Source of the DNA: a virus
Length of the DNA: 33,396 nucleotides
Strand: one strand, 5' to 3'
Virus record (IMG/VR): IMGVR_UViG_3300025711_000271
Coordinates: 1 to 33,396 of that record
The notes under the pieces were generated by a model. That model made no database searches. It saw only the letters and a list, made by a program, of their open reading frames with translations, and was not told where the DNA came from. The position numbers and the translations under genes are program-made. This document shows, piece by piece, positions 22-33,396 of the stretch (its first letter is position 1; the number at the start of each line of letters is the position of its first letter).

Positions 22-48
22 AAAAAAGCACCTTCGGGTGCTTTTTTT
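22..48. terminator. Bidirectional intrinsic terminator at the left end
   Basis: A perfect 11-bp stem (22-32 pairs with 37-47) closes on a TTCG tetraloop. It has an A-run on one side and a T-run on the other, so it can stop transcription in both directions. It lies about 95 bases beyond the stop codon of the leftward int gene and would end the C-int transcript. It would also insulate the prophage from plus-strand transcription entering from the left. Whether it is phage or host DNA cannot be decided, because the left attachment junction is not identifiable. Confidence 0.8.
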
Positions 49-133: not shown

Positions 134-152
134 TGTGGACATTATGTGGACA
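134..152. repeat. Paired TGTGGACA direct repeats, candidate integrase arm sites
   Basis: TGTGGACA occurs at 134-141 and again at 145-152, an 11-bp step or about one helical turn. The second copy overlaps the end of int. P2-type integrases bind short direct repeats on the arms flanking the attachment core, next to the 3' end of int, and this pair sits at that place. Their role as arm sites is inferred from position and repetition. Confidence 0.5.
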
Positions 153-1134
153 CGCTTTTTGCTTTACCCTTAAGCGGATTTAGCAAAACAGCATCATTCA
201 GAAAGTCCGGCGAAAAGTGAGCATACGCCATAGTCTGAAGTATTTTTGTATGTCCGAGTATGCGCTGTAGGGTCACGATGTTGCCCCCATTCATCATGAA
301 ATGAGTCGCAAAGGTATGGCGCAAAACATGCGTTGACTGCCCTTTAGGTAAATCCGGCTTTACCTCTTTTAGCAACAACCTAAACTCTCCGTAATCTGCA
401 TCAGGAAACATCAGCCCGGATTTTCGGGTAAAAACTTCTTCAATGATTTCAGATGAAACAGGTACGGTGCGTTTTACAGATGTTTTAGTCTGAACGAAAG
501 TTACTTTTCCATTCACCACGTGCTCAACCCTGAGCTTTTTCGCTTCCCCCCACCTGGCCCCGGTGCTTAGACATAACAACGCTAGCTTGTGGTTGTCGCC
601 GGTTAAGGCATCAAGTAGGCGATCCATTTCTGGCTTGGAAAGAAAGCCCATAGCGGTCTGACTCTCCTTAACTTTCGTTATTCCCCTGATTGGGTTCTGA
701 CCATGATAAAGTCCAGAATTCGTCAAGAAAGTAAACATTCCAGATAAAACAGCAATGTTTCGGTTAAGCGTTGAAGCCTTATTCCCGGCCATCAATCTTT
801 CAACACGATATTTTGCGATCATCTTGTTATCGATTTGGAAAACCGCAGGTGACCCCATGCAATCATCCATCCTCTTTAACTTCCCATGATAATCTACTCC
901 ATGCTCAACAGTTTTACCGTAATACTGCCACCACAGCTCAATTAACTCAGTTAGAGATCGCTTGTCTTTGGGTCTGGCAAGCCATTCTTTATCGTGGTAG
1001 TTCACCACAGTATATTTTTCGAAGGCTATAGCTTCATGTTTTTTATCAAACTTCCGCCGAATGCGTTTTCCGTTTCGTCCGGTCGGTCTTACGTCCACTT
1101 CATATCGACCATCTTCGAGCTTCTTAATCGCCAT
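142..1134 (-). CDS. int: P2-type tyrosine integrase (first integrase)
   Basis: This 330-residue site-specific recombinase should integrate and, with Cox, excise the prophage. The N-terminal arm-binding region (MAIKKLEDGR...GRNGKRIRRKFDKK) is nearly the P2 Int sequence as I recall it, and P2 Int has 337 residues. The catalytic set is complete: R194 in TGARWGEA, K217, H269 and R272 in HVLRH, H295 in ILGH, and nucleophile Y304 in MAYAHF. The start at 1134 gives the canonical N-terminus. The gene lies 66 bases downstream of repressor C on the same strand, as in P2 where both share a transcript. It reads outward toward the left end, where paired TGTGGACA repeats and a terminator follow. A second integrase of the same family lies at the opposite end of the prophage. 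Confidence 0.95.
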   Translation of the reverse strand: MAIKKLEDGRYEVDVRPTGRNGKRIRRKFDKKHEAIAFEKYTVVNYHDKEWLARPKDKRSLTELIELWWQYYGKTVEHGVDYHGKLKRMDDCMGSPAVFQIDNKMIAKYRVERLMAGNKASTLNRNIAVLSGMFTFLTNSGLYHGQNPIRGITKVKESQTAMGFLSKPEMDRLLDALTGDNHKLALLCLSTGARWGEAKKLRVEHVVNGKVTFVQTKTSVKRTVPVSSEIIEEVFTRKSGLMFPDADYGEFRLLLKEVKPDLPKGQSTHVLRHTFATHFMMNGGNIVTLQRILGHTKILQTMAYAHFSPDFLNDAVLLNPLKGKAKSVST

Positions 1135-1200: not shown

Positions 1201-1500
1201 TTAACCAATCTTTTGGCCGGATTGGCCGGATGTTATTCCGTCTTGCCCACAGTGTGCGAGGGCCGGCGCAATTTGGCCGGCCTCTGGCGCTGTCTGCCCT
1301 GACATAAACCACAGTGTGTATTTTCTAAACTGCGGATGGCTAAGCAACCTCATCGTAACGTCTGTTGGGGGTGTAGATCTTCCAGTTTCATAGTAGGTTA
1401 AAGTTCCATAAGGAATGCCAACTAAATCAGATAGTTCCCTTCTATTTAGTCTCTCTGACTCCCGCATGACTACTAATTTGTCTCCAAGTGAGCTTGACAC
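1201..1500 (-). CDS. C: P2 C-type immunity repressor
   Basis: The product represses the early promoter to maintain lysogeny. Starting at the GTG at 1498-1500, preceded by GGAG, it has 99 residues, exactly the length of P2 C. It matches the P2 repressor I remember along its whole length, including PYGTL.YYE.GRSTPPTDV, PQF.KYTLWFM and GQIAPALAH. The N-terminal two thirds is a lambda-repressor-like HTH fold. There is no LexA/RecA cleavage domain, so this repressor type is not directly SOS-cleavable. A longer reading frame exists upstream (TTG at 1575) but would cross the divergent promoter region, so I reject that start. The gene is divergent from cox and followed by int. Confidence 0.93.
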   Translation of the reverse strand: MSSSLGDKLVVMRESERLNRRELSDLVGIPYGTLTYYETGRSTPPTDVTMRLLSHPQFRKYTLWFMSGQTAPEAGQIAPALAHCGQDGITSGQSGQKIG

Positions 1501-1614
1501 TTCGTTTAGATCTCCATAGTATTTTTCTAGATGTTGATTAATTGAGGTTGGATATCGACAAACAATCGCAAGCAATTATAAGCCATTGATTAGATCCAAA
1601 TAGGAGATTAGCAG
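1501..1614. promoter_or_regulatory. Divergent C/cox switch region with early promoter and candidate operators
   Basis: This is the intergenic control region between repressor C (left) and cox (right). A rightward promoter for cox is visible: -35 TCGACA (1555-1560), a 16-base spacer and -10 TATAAG (1577-1582), followed by AGGAG before the cox ATG. The leftward promoter for C is less clear; candidates face the early promoter, as in P2. Three similar short sequences, TTTAGATC (1505-1512), TCTAGATG (1526-1533) and TTAGATC (1590-1596), are in the same orientation. P2 C recognises directly repeated half-sites, so these are candidate operators. Confidence 0.6.
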
Positions 1615-1890
1615 ATGAGCAATAAGATCGTAAGTGTGTCTGATGCCATTCCTTATCCGGAATTTGCCCGCCTTATTGGGAAGACTCCTGAAGCTGTAAA
1701 AGGAATGATTGAAAAGAATAAGTTGCCCATTGTTGAAATGCGCAACCCTGAAAATCCTACCGCCCGTGCAGAGTCTTGGGTTTATCTTCCAGCCTGGAAC
1801 ACCGGATTAAAATTAGCTTTTGATAGCCGCCCGAAAGAAATCCGTGACGGCTGGCTAATGTGGCTAGGTCTGGGAGAACCATCAGCATGA
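1615..1890 (+). CDS. cox: Cox excisionase and antirepressor-type regulator
   Basis: In P2, Cox represses the C promoter, acts as the directionality factor for Int-mediated excision and so commits the phage to lysis. This product has 91 residues, the same length as P2 Cox. It shares its core, including DAIPY.EFA.LIGK near the start and WVYLPAWN.GLKLA..SRPKEIRDGWLMWLGLGEP at the end. The N-terminal part (about 10-45) is a winged-helix DNA-binding fold. The ATG at 1615 has AGGAG seven bases upstream. It is the first gene of the rightward early operon and overlaps the next start by ATGA. Confidence 0.93.
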   Translation: MSNKIVSVSDAIPYPEFARLIGKTPEAVKGMIEKNKLPIVEMRNPENPTARAESWVYLPAWNTGLKLAFDSRPKEIRDGWLMWLGLGEPSA

Positions 1891-6504: not shown

Positions 6505-6564
6505 TTGACAAAACACAGAAATTGCACCAACATCTCGATTGACAAAATCAATTTTTTGCACCAA
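6505..6564 (+). repeat. Two 26-bp direct repeats, candidate operators of the cargo pair
   Basis: Bases 6505-6530 and 6539-6564 are near-copies, each starting TTGACAAAA and ending TTGCACCAA, separated by 8 bases (34-bp period). A third partial copy (GCACCAA) is at 6480-6486. The terminal TTGCACCAA is a short inverted repeat (TTG-3-CAA). A TATTAT -10-like element is at 6572-6577, 24 bases before the ATG of the first cargo gene. Repeats over the promoter of an operon that encodes an Xre DNA-binding protein suggest autoregulation by that protein. The -35 for this -10 is poor, so the exact promoter is uncertain. Confidence 0.6.
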
Positions 6565-6600
6565 AACTTACTATTATATAGCCAATCGAGAGAGCTTATT

Positions 6601-7200
6601 ATGCCGAATACGAGTTTACCTTGGGAGTTTCATCAGCAATTAAGCGCTGAGCGACTAGCAATTATTGCTGAGAATCTTTTAAAGGTTCTTGATGCCACCC
6701 ACGAGCAACTTTCAACGCCGCTGGATGATAATTACACCCGTGGAACTTGTACTTTTGGCAGGCAGCGCCAATCTCTGATTCAACTTTGTATGGAAGGCGG
6801 CCAAGAGTGGTTAACTTTAGTTAATCCTGGAATGGATCTAACCTTCAGTATTGATACAATCCCTATCCGTTTTTTTGCAGATGACCCAGAACATCCTAGA
6901 AAACCAGGCTTTTTCAGACGAAATAGCGTGGACCAGTTGTGGGCACCTGAAGTCACAATCCCCACCCTTTGGCGATTTGTTGTTGAAAAGCCAGAGTTCG
7001 AAGGCGAAGGAGCTCAAATCCATCTAGTAGGCTACAACCCTATGGGAGAAGTCTTATCCAAGTGGACATATGGTGAGGATAAGATTGCCGTGCTGCATTC
7101 AGTAGACAATACCCCGCCAGCACCAGTGCACGTGGAATTGGATGAAATTAGCCCATCCGTGCCTGATAAAGCTAGCGATAAAAAACGCAATAACGAATAA
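6601..7200 (+). CDS. Unknown cargo protein paired with the Xre-ImmA/IrrE gene
   Basis: I choose ATG 6601 (MPNTSLPWEFHQQL, 199 residues), just downstream of GAGAG and the promoter-like repeats. The frame extends upstream to 6505, but that would translate through the repeats. The protein is soluble, with no signal or membrane segment. Distinct parts are an N-terminal helical region, a central DDNYTRG.C.FGRQRQSL element, a segment with FSIDTIPIRFFADDPEHPRKP, a WRF..EKP..EG region, and a charged, proline-containing disordered tail (after about residue 165). I do not recognise the family. It is 9 bases ahead of the Xre-peptidase gene, and the pair sits in the A-to-cos interval where P2 carries tin and old. 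A toxin or defence effector role is an inference from that partnership. Confidence 0.8.
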   Translation: MPNTSLPWEFHQQLSAERLAIIAENLLKVLDATHEQLSTPLDDNYTRGTCTFGRQRQSLIQLCMEGGQEWLTLVNPGMDLTFSIDTIPIRFFADDPEHPRKPGFFRRNSVDQLWAPEVTIPTLWRFVVEKPEFEGEGAQIHLVGYNPMGEVLSKWTYGEDKIAVLHSVDNTPPAPVHVELDEISPSVPDKASDKKRNNE

Positions 7201-7209
7201 AGGTGAAAA

Positions 7210-8325
7210 GTGTTCAACGGTTCTAATTTACGGTTGGCTCGTCTGTATCACGAGCTTTCACTTGAGCAGGTGGCTGAGCGTGTCAATAAAACTCGCCAGT
7301 ACATACAGCGGCTGGAGACCGGCATTGCTGTACCCACTATTGAGCTTGCTAATGAATTGGCTACCGTTTTAAAAGTTGCCCCTGTGTTTTTTGACACGGA
7401 TGAACAATCTCCTTTGAATGAGGAGATTGTTCACTTCCGTAAACGCAGTTCAACAAGAGTGGTAACTAAATTAGCAACTCTCGCAAAAGCGGAACTTTAC
7501 AGACGCCTTATAGAAGTTTTCGAGCAGAATCTCAATCTCCCCCCGGTTAGATTCGAACAGATTGATGCACACACCCAGGATGAAATTGAGAAAGCTGCGG
7601 AGAAATGTAGGATTGATTGGGGCTTAGGACTTGGCCCAATAGATAATATGACTCGTGTTGCTGAGAAAATGGGCGCGTTCGTTACATCTTTCGATTCGGT
7701 TTGTGACGAAGTTGATGCTCTTTCTGTTCCTCTTGAAAGGCCTTTTATCGTCAGGAACACTGCCAAAAAATCTCCGTGTCGACAACGTTTTGACATCGCA
7801 CATGAGGTTGGCCATCTTGTTCTTCATGGTGGAATATCAACTGGGGATCGGGCTACAGAATCAGAAGCCAACCGTTTTGCTTCTGCAATTTTATTACCTC
7901 GCAGCGCAATGGCTAAATATTTCCCTCGTCCTATTGGCGGGCGCATCGATTGGCAAGGATTAAGCGAATTTAAGCTAACTTGGAAAGTTAGCAAAGCAGC
8001 AATTATTTACCGTGCTCATCAATTATCGCTTCTCAGCGATGCACAGTACAAAACTGCTTTTTTTGGCCTTAAGAGGAAAGGCGAAGCAATTGAGGAAAAA
8101 GAAGACTATTTGATTGCTCATGAAAAACCAGAGTTATTTCACCGAGCAATGCGGGTTTTGTTAAAAGATCTAAATATGGATGCCGAAAGTCTGGCAAAAC
8201 GGCTTAAAATATCGGTCCCTATGCTTTTAGAACTTGCCAATGATCCAGATCTCCATAATAGCAGTCTTGACTGTGCCTCAGGTAACGTAGTTTCCCTCCT
8301 CGCTTACCGTAACATGACAGCTTAG
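7210..8325 (+). CDS. Xre HTH and ImmA/IrrE-type metallopeptidase fusion protein
   Basis: This 371-residue protein has two recognisable domains. Residues 5-60 are an Xre/HTH_3 DNA-binding domain (LRLARLYHELSLEQVAERV, then TRQYIQRLETG). Residues about 140-240 are an ImmA/IrrE (COG2856) zinc peptidase domain with HEVGH at 198-202 and a SEANRFA.A.LLP segment that supplies the third ligand (Glu219). A C-terminal region (305-345) contains a second HTH-like helix pair (LAKRLKISVPMLLELA). The start is GTG 7210, with AAGG upstream and 9 bases after the previous stop. Proteins of this layout act as regulators or antitoxins, and the peptidase may cleave a repressor or partner on a signal. The intact zinc motif argues for activity. 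A terminator follows directly, so the two genes form one unit. Confidence 0.88.
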   Translation: MFNGSNLRLARLYHELSLEQVAERVNKTRQYIQRLETGIAVPTIELANELATVLKVAPVFFDTDEQSPLNEEIVHFRKRSSTRVVTKLATLAKAELYRRLIEVFEQNLNLPPVRFEQIDAHTQDEIEKAAEKCRIDWGLGLGPIDNMTRVAEKMGAFVTSFDSVCDEVDALSVPLERPFIVRNTAKKSPCRQRFDIAHEVGHLVLHGGISTGDRATESEANRFASAILLPRSAMAKYFPRPIGGRIDWQGLSEFKLTWKVSKAAIIYRAHQLSLLSDAQYKTAFFGLKRKGEAIEEKEDYLIAHEKPELFHRAMRVLLKDLNMDAESLAKRLKISVPMLLELANDPDLHNSSLDCASGNVVSLLAYRNMTA

Positions 8326-22525: not shown

Positions 22526-22971
22526 TGGCGATTGAACCCAGAAAACTTTTCAGCTCTTACGAATATCTTGAGCCCACTAACGGCACTGAATTTGCCCTTG
22601 AAACGGTGGACGGCAAACAGTTCAAGGTCGCCAACGTCATGGCGCGCGCATTGAACAAGGGCACCACGAAGGAAGTACAGGCTGTGCTTGAAATCGGTCA
22701 GCGCATGGTCGAAGTGGCGACCGAGACGGCGCTGGGCTCGGTGGTTCAGGTCGTCAATATCGATGACCTTGAGCTTAACCAGCAGGATGACGGGAGCGTG
22801 AGCGCCGAACAGGCCAGCCGAAACCAGGCCGAAGCCATCAAGCGCAATAACGTCGCCCTGAATGCGCTGCTCAAAGAGTGGCACATCCTGGTTAACTACC
22901 TCCTGAACAATCGCCAGCTGGTGCGCGCACCGGTTTCCACGAACACCACGGCAAACGACAACGCATCATAA
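22525..22971 (+). CDS. Unknown protein following the tailspike (148 residues)
   Basis: The start overlaps the tailspike stop (TGATG), so the two are probably coupled. The soluble product has a beta-rich beginning (YEYLEPTNGTEFALETVDGK), a helical middle (VQAVLEIGQRMVEVATETA), and a helical C-terminal part (ASRNQAEAIKRNNVALNALL) ending in a Thr/Asn-rich tail. I do not recognise it; it is not a gpG-type fibre assembly protein. Its position suggests a spike partner, chaperone or additional baseplate-attached protein. Confidence 0.75.
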   Translation: MAIEPRKLFSSYEYLEPTNGTEFALETVDGKQFKVANVMARALNKGTTKEVQAVLEIGQRMVEVATETALGSVVQVVNIDDLELNQQDDGSVSAEQASRNQAEAIKRNNVALNALLKEWHILVNYLLNNRQLVRAPVSTNTTANDNAS

Positions 22972-22980
22972 GGGGCCATC

Positions 22981-23328
22981 ATGGCAATCACGGGAAAATA
23001 CAGTTTCAACGCCTACCTGCTGGATGAGGCCTATGCCGTCATTGGCCGCATGAATATCAGCGAGTCGTCAGCGGTCGTTTACTTCAACGTTTACGCCTCG
23101 CTGTCGGCGTACACGATGGGAAACCCGCCGGTGTCTACGGTACCGCTGCCGATGCGTTACGCCTCGGGCGACATTCCCATTGAAGCGTTTGAGGCACAGG
23201 CGCTCAACACGCCGATATTTGACGGTTTTGAAAAGGTCGCCACGGAGGCGATTACGCGCAGCGAAGCGAGTACGCAAAGCCTGGGTGCTTCGATACTCCC
23301 CCAGAAAACCGATGAAAAGACGGCGTGA
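22981..23328 (+). CDS. Unknown protein between the two receptor-binding genes (115 residues)
   Basis: It starts nine bases after the previous stop with AAGGGG upstream. The product looks beta-rich (KYSFNAYLLDEAYAVIGRMNISESSAVVYFNVYASLSAY) with a polar, helical last third. No membrane segment, cysteine motif or enzyme signature is seen, and I do not recognise the family. Tight spacing with the preceding gene suggests that both serve the tailspike. Confidence 0.72.
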   Translation: MAITGKYSFNAYLLDEAYAVIGRMNISESSAVVYFNVYASLSAYTMGNPPVSTVPLPMRYASGDIPIEAFEAQALNTPIFDGFEKVATEAITRSEASTQSLGASILPQKTDEKTA

Positions 23329-31085: not shown

Positions 31086-31304
31086 ATGATGAACTGTCCT
31101 ATGTGCCAATATGCTGCACATGCCAGATCCAGCCGTTATCTCAGCACAGAAACCAAAGAGCGCTATCACCAGTGCACAAATATTAACTGTGGCTGCACGT
31201 TCAAATCTCTTGAGTCCATTACCGATATCATCGTAAAGCCAGCGCTAATTAACCCTGTCCCGCCGCACCCTGGCCGAGGCAATCAGGGCAATCTCTGGAT
31301 CTAG
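31086..31304 (+). CDS. ogr: Late transcription activator Ogr (zinc finger)
   Basis: This 72-residue protein has the same length as P2 Ogr. It has four cysteines for zinc (CPMC at residues 4-7, then CTNINC at 30-35) and shares CP.CQ.AAHAR.SRY.....KERYHQC.N.NC and the end IVKP...NPV.PHP. It binds TGT-N12-ACA sites and contacts the RNA polymerase alpha subunit to switch on late promoters. ATG 31086 is followed by a second ATG. It is followed directly by a terminator. Confidence 0.95.
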   Translation: MMNCPMCQYAAHARSSRYLSTETKERYHQCTNINCGCTFKSLESITDIIVKPALINPVPPHPGRGNQGNLWI

Positions 31305-31311
31305 TCCCCTG

Positions 31312-31335
31312 CCCCGCTGATGCGGGGTTTGTTTT
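31312..31335 (+). terminator. Intrinsic terminator after ogr
   Basis: CCCCGC pairs with GCGGGG around TGAT, followed by TTTGTTTT. It lies eight bases after the ogr stop and closes the FI-to-ogr transcription unit, separating it from the second integrase. Confidence 0.88.
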
Positions 31336-31383
31336 ATCTGCTAGGTATTGGCATCCAACTAATCGCCAGTTTGCATTTTACTT

Positions 31384-31434
31384 GGCTAACTATTCACAAA
31401 TCGGCTAATCATATCCACAAAAGGCTAAAAGGCT
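31384..31434 (+). repeat. GGCTAA repeats in the ogr to second-integrase gap
   Basis: GGCTAA occurs at 31384-31389, 31403-31408 and 31423-31428, with a partial GGCT at 31431-31434. The step is 19-20 bases, nearly two helical turns. Two copies are preceded by CACAAA, giving a longer similar unit. The 240 bases of AT-rich DNA around it hold no gene. Phased short repeats next to ogr, where P2 has its attachment region, may be integrase arm or Cox/IHF-type sites. Confidence 0.5.
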
Positions 31435-31569
31435 GCTATGAGCGAGCTAACAAGTTGATAGTTTAGAATATTTGTCAAGTTTCCCGTCAAAGCGATCAAA
31501 TGATTTATGTAAAAATCATCAAATTACATGCCCTCCGCAACCAGGTGTATAAAATCCTTAAAACAAACA

Positions 31570-31598
31570 TTGAATACTGTTTTTATATACAGTATTTT
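31570..31598 (+). promoter_or_regulatory. LexA (SOS) box inside the promoter of the second integrase
   Basis: TACTGTTTTTATATACAGTA (31575-31594) has perfect CTGT-N8-ACAG ends and, by my count, 18 of 20 positions of the E. coli LexA consensus. It lies between -35 TTGAAT (31570-31575) and -10 TATTTT (31593-31598), spaced by 17 bases, so LexA binding would block the promoter. Predicted transcription starts near 31605, about 20 bases ahead of the integrase ATG. Confidence 0.85.
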
Positions 31599-31624
31599 GC
31601 GTCTTTTGATTTCAAAAGCGCAGA

Positions 31625-32668
31625 ATGATTATGGGCCCTAAAAAGCTTGCGGACGGAAAATGGCAGTGTGATTTCTACCTCAATGGCCGTGGTTCTAAGC
31701 GGGTTCGTAAAACCTTTATAACCCGTGGGGAAGCCATCAATTACGAAAAATTTATGATGGCTGAAATTGAGTCTAAACCCTGGCTGGGCGAAAAAGACGA
31801 CCAACGCCACCTCAGTGAGCTAATCGACCTCTGGTATAAACTGCACGGCTGTTCACTCAATGACAAAAAAGGCCGCCTAGGCAAACTGCATATCATTTGT
31901 CGAGGTCTAGGCGATCCTGTTGCCAATACCTTGACGGCAAAAGATTGGGCGCACTATCGCGATCGCCGACTGCGTGGCGCGATTGAAAATGGCTATAAGA
32001 CCAGCACAAAGTCCCTCAAAGTCTCGATTGCGACCGTAAACTGTGAACATGCTTTTATACGTGCAGTGTTTAATGAGTTAGTCCGGCTTGGGGAGATCAG
32101 CTACCCTAATCCGCTAAAAAACGTCCGTGAGTTCGATGTGCCAGAAAAAGAGATGGCCTGGCTGACCGATGAACAGTTAACCCGCCTGATGCGCGCCTGT
32201 CGCGGCCACGCAAACCCCGACCTCACTTTAATCGTTAAGATATGCCTGAGCACCGGTTCACGCTGGAATGAAGCAGCCAAGCTTAAAGCCTCGCAGCTTT
32301 CGCCAGGGAAAATAACCTTTATCAAAACCAAAGGTAAGAAAAACCGCACAGTACCCATTAGCCAGGCACTCTACGATGAGTTGATAGCTCGTGAAGGCAA
32401 ACCCTTTGATGAATGCTACCGGCAATTTTACCGCGTGCTAAAGATTGCAAAAATACAATTACCAGAGGGTCAGATGAGCCATGTATTACGGCACACCTTC
32501 GCCAGTCATTTTATGATGTCAGGGGGAAATATAATTGTATTGCAGCGTATTCTCGGGCACTCAGATATTCGCGTAACAATGCGTTATGCACATTTCGCCC
32601 CAGACCATTTAGAGGACGCAATTAATTTTAATCCATTGCAAAGGCTGAATTCGCTGACTACAAATTGA
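31625..32668 (+). CDS. Second P2-type tyrosine integrase, SOS-regulated
   Basis: This 347-residue recombinase is of the same family as the left integrase. Its arm-binding N-terminus reads GPKKLADGKWQCDFYLNGRGSKRVRKTF, and its catalytic set is complete: Arg213 (GSRWNEA), Lys236, His286 and Arg289 (HVLRH), His312 (ILGH) and nucleophile Tyr321 (MRYAHF). Initiation could be at 31625 or at the ATG two codons later (31631), which aligns better with the first integrase. It reads rightward, away from the phage and toward the sdsR terminator, about 90 bases on. In this family att lies beyond the 3' end of int, so its target is probably the sdsR 3' end. It could be a remnant of an older element or a second functional integrase. 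The LexA box upstream is unusual. Confidence 0.93.
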   Translation: MIMGPKKLADGKWQCDFYLNGRGSKRVRKTFITRGEAINYEKFMMAEIESKPWLGEKDDQRHLSELIDLWYKLHGCSLNDKKGRLGKLHIICRGLGDPVANTLTAKDWAHYRDRRLRGAIENGYKTSTKSLKVSIATVNCEHAFIRAVFNELVRLGEISYPNPLKNVREFDVPEKEMAWLTDEQLTRLMRACRGHANPDLTLIVKICLSTGSRWNEAAKLKASQLSPGKITFIKTKGKKNRTVPISQALYDELIAREGKPFDECYRQFYRVLKIAKIQLPEGQMSHVLRHTFASHFMMSGGNIIVLQRILGHSDIRVTMRYAHFAPDHLEDAINFNPLQRLNSLTTN

Positions 32669-32673
32669 CTACG

Positions 32674-32707: not shown

Positions 32708-32761
32708 ACTACTCATAAGTGACTGATTTTAATGTAAGTGGCTGTTTTAAAAACCCCACAA

Positions 32762-32866
32762 AAAAAAGACCGAATACGATTCCTATATTCGGTCTAGGGA
32801 AATGGCTCTTGGGAGAGAGCCGTGCGCTAAAAGTTGGCATTGATGCAGGCGGTTAAGCCATACAAC
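32762..32866 (-). ncRNA. sdsR: SdsR (RyeB) sigma-S-dependent small RNA
   Basis: On the minus strand this region matches the E. coli/Salmonella SdsR RNA I remember through CCAACTTTTAGCGCACGG, CTCTCTCCCAAGAGCC and the terminator GACCGAATA...TATTCGGTC followed by Ts. A sigma-S-type -10 (CTACTCT, minus strand at 32877-32871) gives a start near 32866 and a length of about 105 nt. SdsR is an abundant stationary-phase, Hfq-bound regulator. The plus-strand antisense partner RyeA/SraC normally starts beyond the SdsR 3' end. That flank is now integrase-proximal DNA, so its native promoter is probably displaced. yebY lies on the 5' side, as in E. coli. Confidence 0.92.
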
Positions 32867-33026
32867 TTAAAGAGTAGTCGAGCTTAAATGCTTTTCCAGC
32901 GAGTTTGGCGACCTGTGATAATTACTTAACGAAATGAGTTACGTTTTGTGACAACATTCGCAAAACCACCCATTAACTGTGTGGAATTCAAGCGAGAAGG
33001 GGGTTTTTAGACAGGGGGATATTAAA
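32867..33026. other. sdsR-yebY intergenic region
   Basis: About 160 bases of AT-rich host DNA hold no convincing gene. They include the sdsR promoter (-10 at 32871-32877). In E. coli the antisense RNA RyeA/SraC extends into this side. I see no obvious plus-strand promoter or terminator for it here. Confidence 0.6.
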
Positions 33027-33060: not shown

Positions 33061-33396
33061 TTAACACAGGGTTCCAGCGCGCTCGATAAACGGGGCAAGA
33101 CTCATCTTGTGGCCGGGATTTTTGGGGTCATCCAGCTGAATAATGCTCAGCGGCTGTGCACTCACCTTCCCTTCTTTCACCCACTGCTCTGCTACATCAT
33201 TCAGCGGATACTGCGCCAGCGTGCTGTCATTAATCACGAACAGGGCTTTGCCCGGTCGGCATTGCAGCATCACTTCTTCACGGGTGAACGCCCATGCCTT
33301 GCCATATTCCAGACGGCTCACGGTAACAACTTGCGGCGCTGCGAAACAGCTGGCAGACAGGGTGAGCAACAGCCCCCCAAGTAGCGTTTTTTTCAT
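33061..33396 (-). CDS. yebY: YebY, periplasmic DUF2511 protein
   Basis: This is a complete 111-residue host gene whose start codon is the last three bases of the window. The N-terminus is a signal peptide ([19 protein letters not shown], cleavage before APQVV), so the product should be periplasmic. The mature part matches E. coli YebY: VVTVSR.E.GK..AF.REEVML.CRPG.AL.VIN..TL.QYPLND, and [16 protein letters not shown]. Two Cys (about 47 and 111) could form a disulfide. In E. coli yebY precedes yebZ and yobA, a membrane/copper-related cluster; its exact role is not established. It marks the right chromosomal flank. Confidence 0.93.

Follow-up and report, generated by a model that had tools for sequence, protein, structure and literature searches.

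A conserved LexA box at the promoter of an integrase gene in a PSP3/186-related prophage lineage of the SdsR locus

Direct control by LexA has been established for the tum gene of coliphage 186 (PMC7708051), and the promoters of the integron integrase genes (intI) are also placed directly under LexA (PMC3108266). The attachment locus considered here is known from phage phiW104 of S. Typhimurium DT104, which is inserted at ryeA/ryeB, in the last 23 bp of ryeB, and whose lysogeny lowers ryeA and raises ryeB (PMC7380047). In the open-access literature searched, no LexA box preceding a phage integrase was found besides those of integrons, nor was any precedent for two integrases in P2-like phages.

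The DNA analysed, hereafter referred to as the window, is a stretch of 33,396 nucleotides corresponding to the IMG/VR virus record IMGVR_UViG_3300025711_000271. It harbors two integrase genes, int1 and int2, whose surroundings are reported in Table 1.

Table 1. Features at the two ends of the window (positions refer to the whole stretch).
Feature	Position	Strand	Evidence
Terminator hairpin at left edge, probable int1 attL core in host DNA	25..44		95 bp from int1 arm
int1 arm-type repeats TGTCCACA, period 11 bp	134..150	-	Repeat analysis
int1, P2-type integrase beside C, without LexA box	142..1134	-	56% identical to P2 Int
P2-type C repressor (HTH)	1201..1575	-	phrog_147
P2-type Cox	1615..1890	+	Pfam Phage_Cox, E 1.2e-33
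ogr, late-gene activator, directly 5' of int2 promoter	31086..31304	+	Pfam Ogr_Delta, E 1.1e-20
Terminator hairpin after ogr, end of late operon	31311..31328	+	Terminator scan; same place in relatives
-35 hexamer TTGAAT, int2 promoter	31570..31575	+	Sequence; promoter block kept in clade
LexA box TACTGTTTTTATATACAGTA	31575..31594	+	18/20 to consensus; CTG and ACAGT invariant in 36 clade members
-10 hexamer TATTTT	31593..31598	+	Sequence; homologues TATTTT, TAATTT, TAAAAT
int2, tyrosine integrase, SdsR-site lineage	31625..32668	+	Pfam Int_N and Phage_integrase; catalytic motifs; monophyletic clade, support 100
Candidate int2 arm-type sites, direct repeat TGACTACAAAT/TGACTAC, period 11 bp	32655..32672	+	Comparable repeats flank attL and attR in relatives
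attR core AAAAAAAAGACCGAATACGATT in SdsR terminator	32759..32781		Same core at the left end in relatives (14-25 bp identical)
RyeA/SraC sRNA gene, antisense to SdsR, directly 3' of int2	32757..32902	+	Rfam RF00101, 140.3 bits
SdsR/RyeB sRNA gene, attachment site	32761..32860	-	Rfam RF00111, 109.7 bits
yebY (DUF2511), host gene beside attR	33061..33396	-	Pfam, E 1.3e-41

The LexA box upstream of int2 matches the consensus TACTG(TA)5CAGTA at 18 of its 20 positions; the runner-up in the window reaches 13/20, and the exact pattern CTGT-N8-ACAG has a single occurrence, at 31577-31592. When the region 31305-31640 was shuffled preserving dinucleotides, just one shuffle out of 3000 gave a box scoring at least 15/20 with intact CTG/CAG. 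As read from the sequence, the box, which lies at a distance of ~30 bp from int2, fully takes up the 17-bp spacer of the promoter, i.e., the CTGT-N8-ACAG operator overlaps the promoter, as is the case in the LexA regulon. No further LexA box was found in the window, and the box of int2 is likewise the sole one in a second IMG/VR record, G010, described below. Since the late operon is closed by the terminator after ogr, int2 requires a promoter of its own. This promoter was not listed by a strict scan of the window, because the cut-off was set at 9/12 matches and the int2 promoter has 8; at the equivalent position, the Rahnella homologues show TTTACA-17-TAAAAT.

The reading frame of int2 is open (translation possibly starts from the ATG at 31631 instead of 31625), and the encoded protein contains the Int_N (E 6.5e-30) and Phage_integrase (E 8.2e-22) domains with the catalytic motifs TGSRWNEA and HVLRHTFA, which places it among the tyrosine integrases of the P2/186 family. 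A sequence-only reading had reported a near-consensus LexA box between the -35 and the -10 of an intact integrase gene, and these data confirm it. Among 50,697 records of isolated phages, no integrase more than 60% identical to int2 was found. The identification of int2 as an integron integrase (IntI with attI and attC) was rejected, the protein being a P2/186 Int with phage arms and an att core in SdsR.

Relatives of int2 were gathered from viral and bacterial contigs, giving a set of 224 distinct integrases; 44 of them, including int2, form a single monophyletic clade (support 100). The box is present in 36 of these 44 members, as expected for an operator conserved within the LexA regulon, and in the alignment of the 36 promoters the box shows no variation in CTG and ACAGT, the flanking columns being mostly variable. 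The comparison among homologous integrases that had been proposed as a check of the box thus refutes its absence in all close relatives. The eight members without it include two pseudogene copies (L003 and L286), one incompletely matched sequence (L025), and five (L021, L022, L026, L095, and L290) in which the box has been lost or altered; the LexA box is, therefore, not indispensable. The promoter pattern of the clade was also searched for in IMG/VR, and 43 matches were retrieved, with int2 located 27-32 bp downstream in 42 of them (the 43rd contig ends) and ogr upstream in 42/43; the pattern having been derived from the int2 clade itself, these counts measure its specificity and not its recall. 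The P2-type integrases sharing no more than 62% identity with int2 are devoid of the box, with the exception of L150, L239, and L248. The conservation of both box and promoter across the clade supports the proposal that LexA controls int2 directly, which, on this comparative ground, is very likely.

As for the three exceptions, all P2-type integrases outside the int2 clade, the LexA-like box lies just 5' of the gene (at 3800 in L150 from Aeromonas salmonicida, 7970 in L239, and 7940 in L248). In L150 and L239, an S24-like repressor gene is found 5' of int on the same strand, directly before int in the latter. These single boxes suggest more than one origin for the wiring.

In those relatives of which both ends were examined, a 186-type cI (Pfam Phage_CI_repr and Phage_CI_C), cII, and a gene of the Apl/Cox type are found at the left end, where cI has no integrase next to it; int2 is located after ogr, on the ogr side of attP and away from cI. 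These elements have the 186-type cI, the cII, and, in most of those checked, a LexA-boxed tumA, and are devoid of an int gene in the cI-side operon. Judging from this gene order, int2 is the native, and usually the only, integrase of a PSP3/186-related prophage lineage; its previous description as a "second" integrase does not apply to the relatives, where it is the sole integrase of the element. A LexA-boxed int2 occurs in Buttiauxella, Winslowiella, Pectobacterium, Rahnella, and a strain named Martelella alba, i.e., the change that made the recombinase a LexA target and moved its gene across attP is maintained across at least five named genera of enterobacteria. The elements of Serratia (L095) and Martelella (L089), used as extra controls, are int2-bearing remnants without a complete surrounding phage.

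In most of the int2-type prophages checked, a further LexA box is located after the replication gene A and before a gene encoding a 58-64 aa protein of phrog_1993, a family of unknown function in PHROGs that includes the TumA of PSP3. All the 16 genes of this family examined (L371-L386) have a LexA box close by; as an example, in G003, the box is at 7602 and the ORF at 7641-7826. This arrangement also bears on the identity of the protein recognizing the palindrome before int2. Being near a phage promoter, the palindrome might bind Int, the Apl-like protein, or a phage repressor; however, its sequence is that of a canonical enterobacterial LexA site, and phages of the same lineage have the same motif before tumA, in the slot occupied by the LexA site in 186, so that a binder other than LexA appears very improbable. 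With LexA boxes at both int2 and tumA, SOS should derepress the two genes together. The suggestion that the integrase acts apart from the lytic switch was, therefore, not borne out for the lineage, most prophages checked having the box before tumA as well.

The sequence AAAAAAAGACCGAATAC of the SdsR terminator was retrieved, slightly varied, at the left end of the Buttiauxella, Rahnella, Pectobacterium, and Serratia relatives, and this repetition identifies it as the att core; the int2 lineage is predicted to insert there, in the terminator at the 3' end of the SdsR gene, next to yebY. Taking operator, gene order, and attachment site together, we consider it quite probable that int2 is the native integrase of an SdsR-inserting lineage related to PSP3 and 186, located on the ogr side of attP and provided with its own LexA-repressed promoter. 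Two further observations concern this locus. A YebY-like (DUF2511) gene lies beside int in many P2-like prophages (PSP3, 22871-23209; L055, L058-L060, L067-L070, L073-L077, L106, and L108), as if acquired from the flank of the SdsR site on which yebY lies. In G449 C1, an int2 pseudogene accompanied by an att remnant of its own is found just left of an int2-type prophage (2539698-2540708 and 2573995-2575011), which indicates repeated occupation of the SdsR site.

Since the att core lies inside the SdsR terminator, insertion should sever RyeA from its promoter (whose position is published for E. coli), consistent with the lowered ryeA of phiW104 lysogens (PMC7380047). No + strand terminator, i.e., on the strand shared by the two genes, was found between int2 and RyeA. 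As RyeA stands directly behind int2, with its own promoter presumably cut off, SOS-induced int2 transcripts may enter RyeA and counter SdsR. It may tentatively be proposed, as a possibility on the unlikely side, that the lysogen makes RyeA as a 3' extension of the SOS-induced int2 mRNA, so that damage would both release the phage and silence SdsR; if this were true, DNA damage would couple phage release to the silencing of a host stress RNA.

The window itself is atypical, with neither a 186-type cI nor a tumA. The P2-type C repressor that had been recognized in it was borne out by its phrog_147 assignment and is accompanied by a P2-type cox; the absence of a tum-like gene, also noticed from the sequence, holds as well, no match to the DinI/Tum-C or TumA (phrog_1993) families having been found in the window, and no tumA in G010. 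The Apl-like protein of the int2 lineage is also absent from the window. In the slot that follows gene A (6505-8325), where tum would be located, the window encodes a phrog_5786 protein and a protein with HTH and M78 metalloprotease domains, possibly an alternative regulator, a toxin-antitoxin pair, or a defence pair.

To the left of int1, the arm repeats are followed by a gap of ~95 bp and by the terminator hairpin. The gap measures 94-103 bp in the int1 relatives L184-L187 and in Rahnella rivi, where the prophage has the equivalent hairpin as its repeated att core; this common spacing suggests that the left edge is probably the int1 attL in a host terminator. The ends of the window thus appear mismatched, the left one being an int1 att site by its anatomy and the right one the int2 attR. 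A search for a direct repeat joining the two ends as an att pair gave only matches of chance length, with no matching core inside the window, and the SdsR core GACCGAATA was not found at the left. An exact search of IMG/VR for the left edge gave no match, and a similarity search in E. coli and about 250 enterobacterial genomes retrieved generic terminator matches only, with no host gene identified. The ends would then not form a pair, and their union would be due either to recombination between two P2-like prophages or to the assembly.

The record might represent a single dual-integrase hybrid, i.e., an SdsR-type phage that acquired an int1-C-cox module and was inserted by int2, its true attL lying just past the left edge. 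In favor of it, G010, an IMG/VR record that contains L015 and is numbered as an isolate genome, is laid out in the same way, with P2-type int and C on the left and LexA box, int2, and yebY on the right, so that at least one independent record shows the int1-left/int2-right arrangement. The left 5.3 kb of G010 (L275, L167) are 94% identical to a P2-type prophage of another Rahnella-group genome (G324, L308-L310), the rest being about 70% identical; on these identities, the P2-type module for regulation and replication has been exchanged recently as a whole. Likewise, gene A of the window is closer to that of int2-type phages (49-53%) than to that of the nearest int1 relatives (34-38%), a grouping that points to an older mosaic at the left. 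The hybrid nevertheless seems rather doubtful, as the succession of int1 arm, about 95 bp, and hairpin at the left edge is that of true int1 attL junctions, and the SdsR core is missing at the left.

The mismatched ends could also result from a metagenome assembly in which a P2-type left end and an SdsR-type right end were joined via shared late genes; a second IMG/VR contig (behind L002) is identical to the window over the right part only, leaving the left uncovered. Such a chimera is, however, somewhat improbable: the late genes diverge about equally from the two types, neither of which shares a nearly identical block with them, and the same layout recurs in G010. The same ends, together with the fact that two int2 copies related to that of the window (85% identical) are pseudogenes, might suggest that the box is just a relic before a disused integrase at a stranded prophage end. 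This is unlikely, though, for the int2 of the window is intact, with a box and a promoter of consensus strength.

From the observed sequence, conservation, synteny, and att site, repression, induction, and recombination may be inferred according to the following scheme. In the unstressed lysogen, LexA would sit on the promoter and keep int2 off; upon DNA damage, its removal would allow int2 transcription. In the usual members of the family, tumA would be derepressed simultaneously, opening the CI switch, and the Apl/Cox-like protein required for excision would appear alongside Int. In the window, SOS would raise int2 without tumA, without the Apl-like protein of the lineage, and on mismatched ends. 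Having a P2-type left module without tumA, the window contains int2 as its only recognisable SOS output, and the mismatched ends and the missing Apl-like protein make precise excision by int2 alone unlikely; SOS should, therefore, raise int2 in the window, but int2 should not excise this prophage precisely. The damage-driven excision, exchange, or deletion without the lytic switch that had been put forward is possible but unsupported, as the family is expected to induce both together. A LexA-repressed int should also handicap integration upon infection of an undamaged cell. Both the SOS timing of excision relative to the lytic switch and the integration into undamaged cells can be tested thanks to the LexA-boxed int2.

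The comparison with the known systems can be summarized as follows. Coliphage 186 (Eganvirus ev186) shares with the int2 lineage the 186-type cI, the cII, the ogr/B gene followed by a terminator, and a LexA-controlled tum after gene A; unlike int2, its int is part of the lysogenic operon, next to cI and on the cI side of attP, and no LexA site is annotated for it; in the stretch of the 186 annotation that was read, the only such site is that of p95-tum. In 186, the damage signal enters via the antirepressor Tum, int being co-expressed with the repressor operon, whereas here the recombinase itself is the predicted LexA target. Salmonella phage PSP3, among the closest isolated phages (its integrase is 57% identical to int2), has cI, tumA, and a DUF2511 gene near int; however, its int lies on the cI side of attP, in the opposite direction, downstream of cI and of the DUF2511 gene. 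The attachment locus is common to phiW104, for which a LexA-controlled integrase is not described (PMC7380047). Lastly, the integron intI is, like int2, a tyrosine recombinase gene directly under an E. coli-like LexA site (PMC3108266), but it belongs to another recombinase family and moves cassettes rather than a prophage. An integrase of the P2/186 family under probable LexA control is, thus, a new arrangement of known parts.
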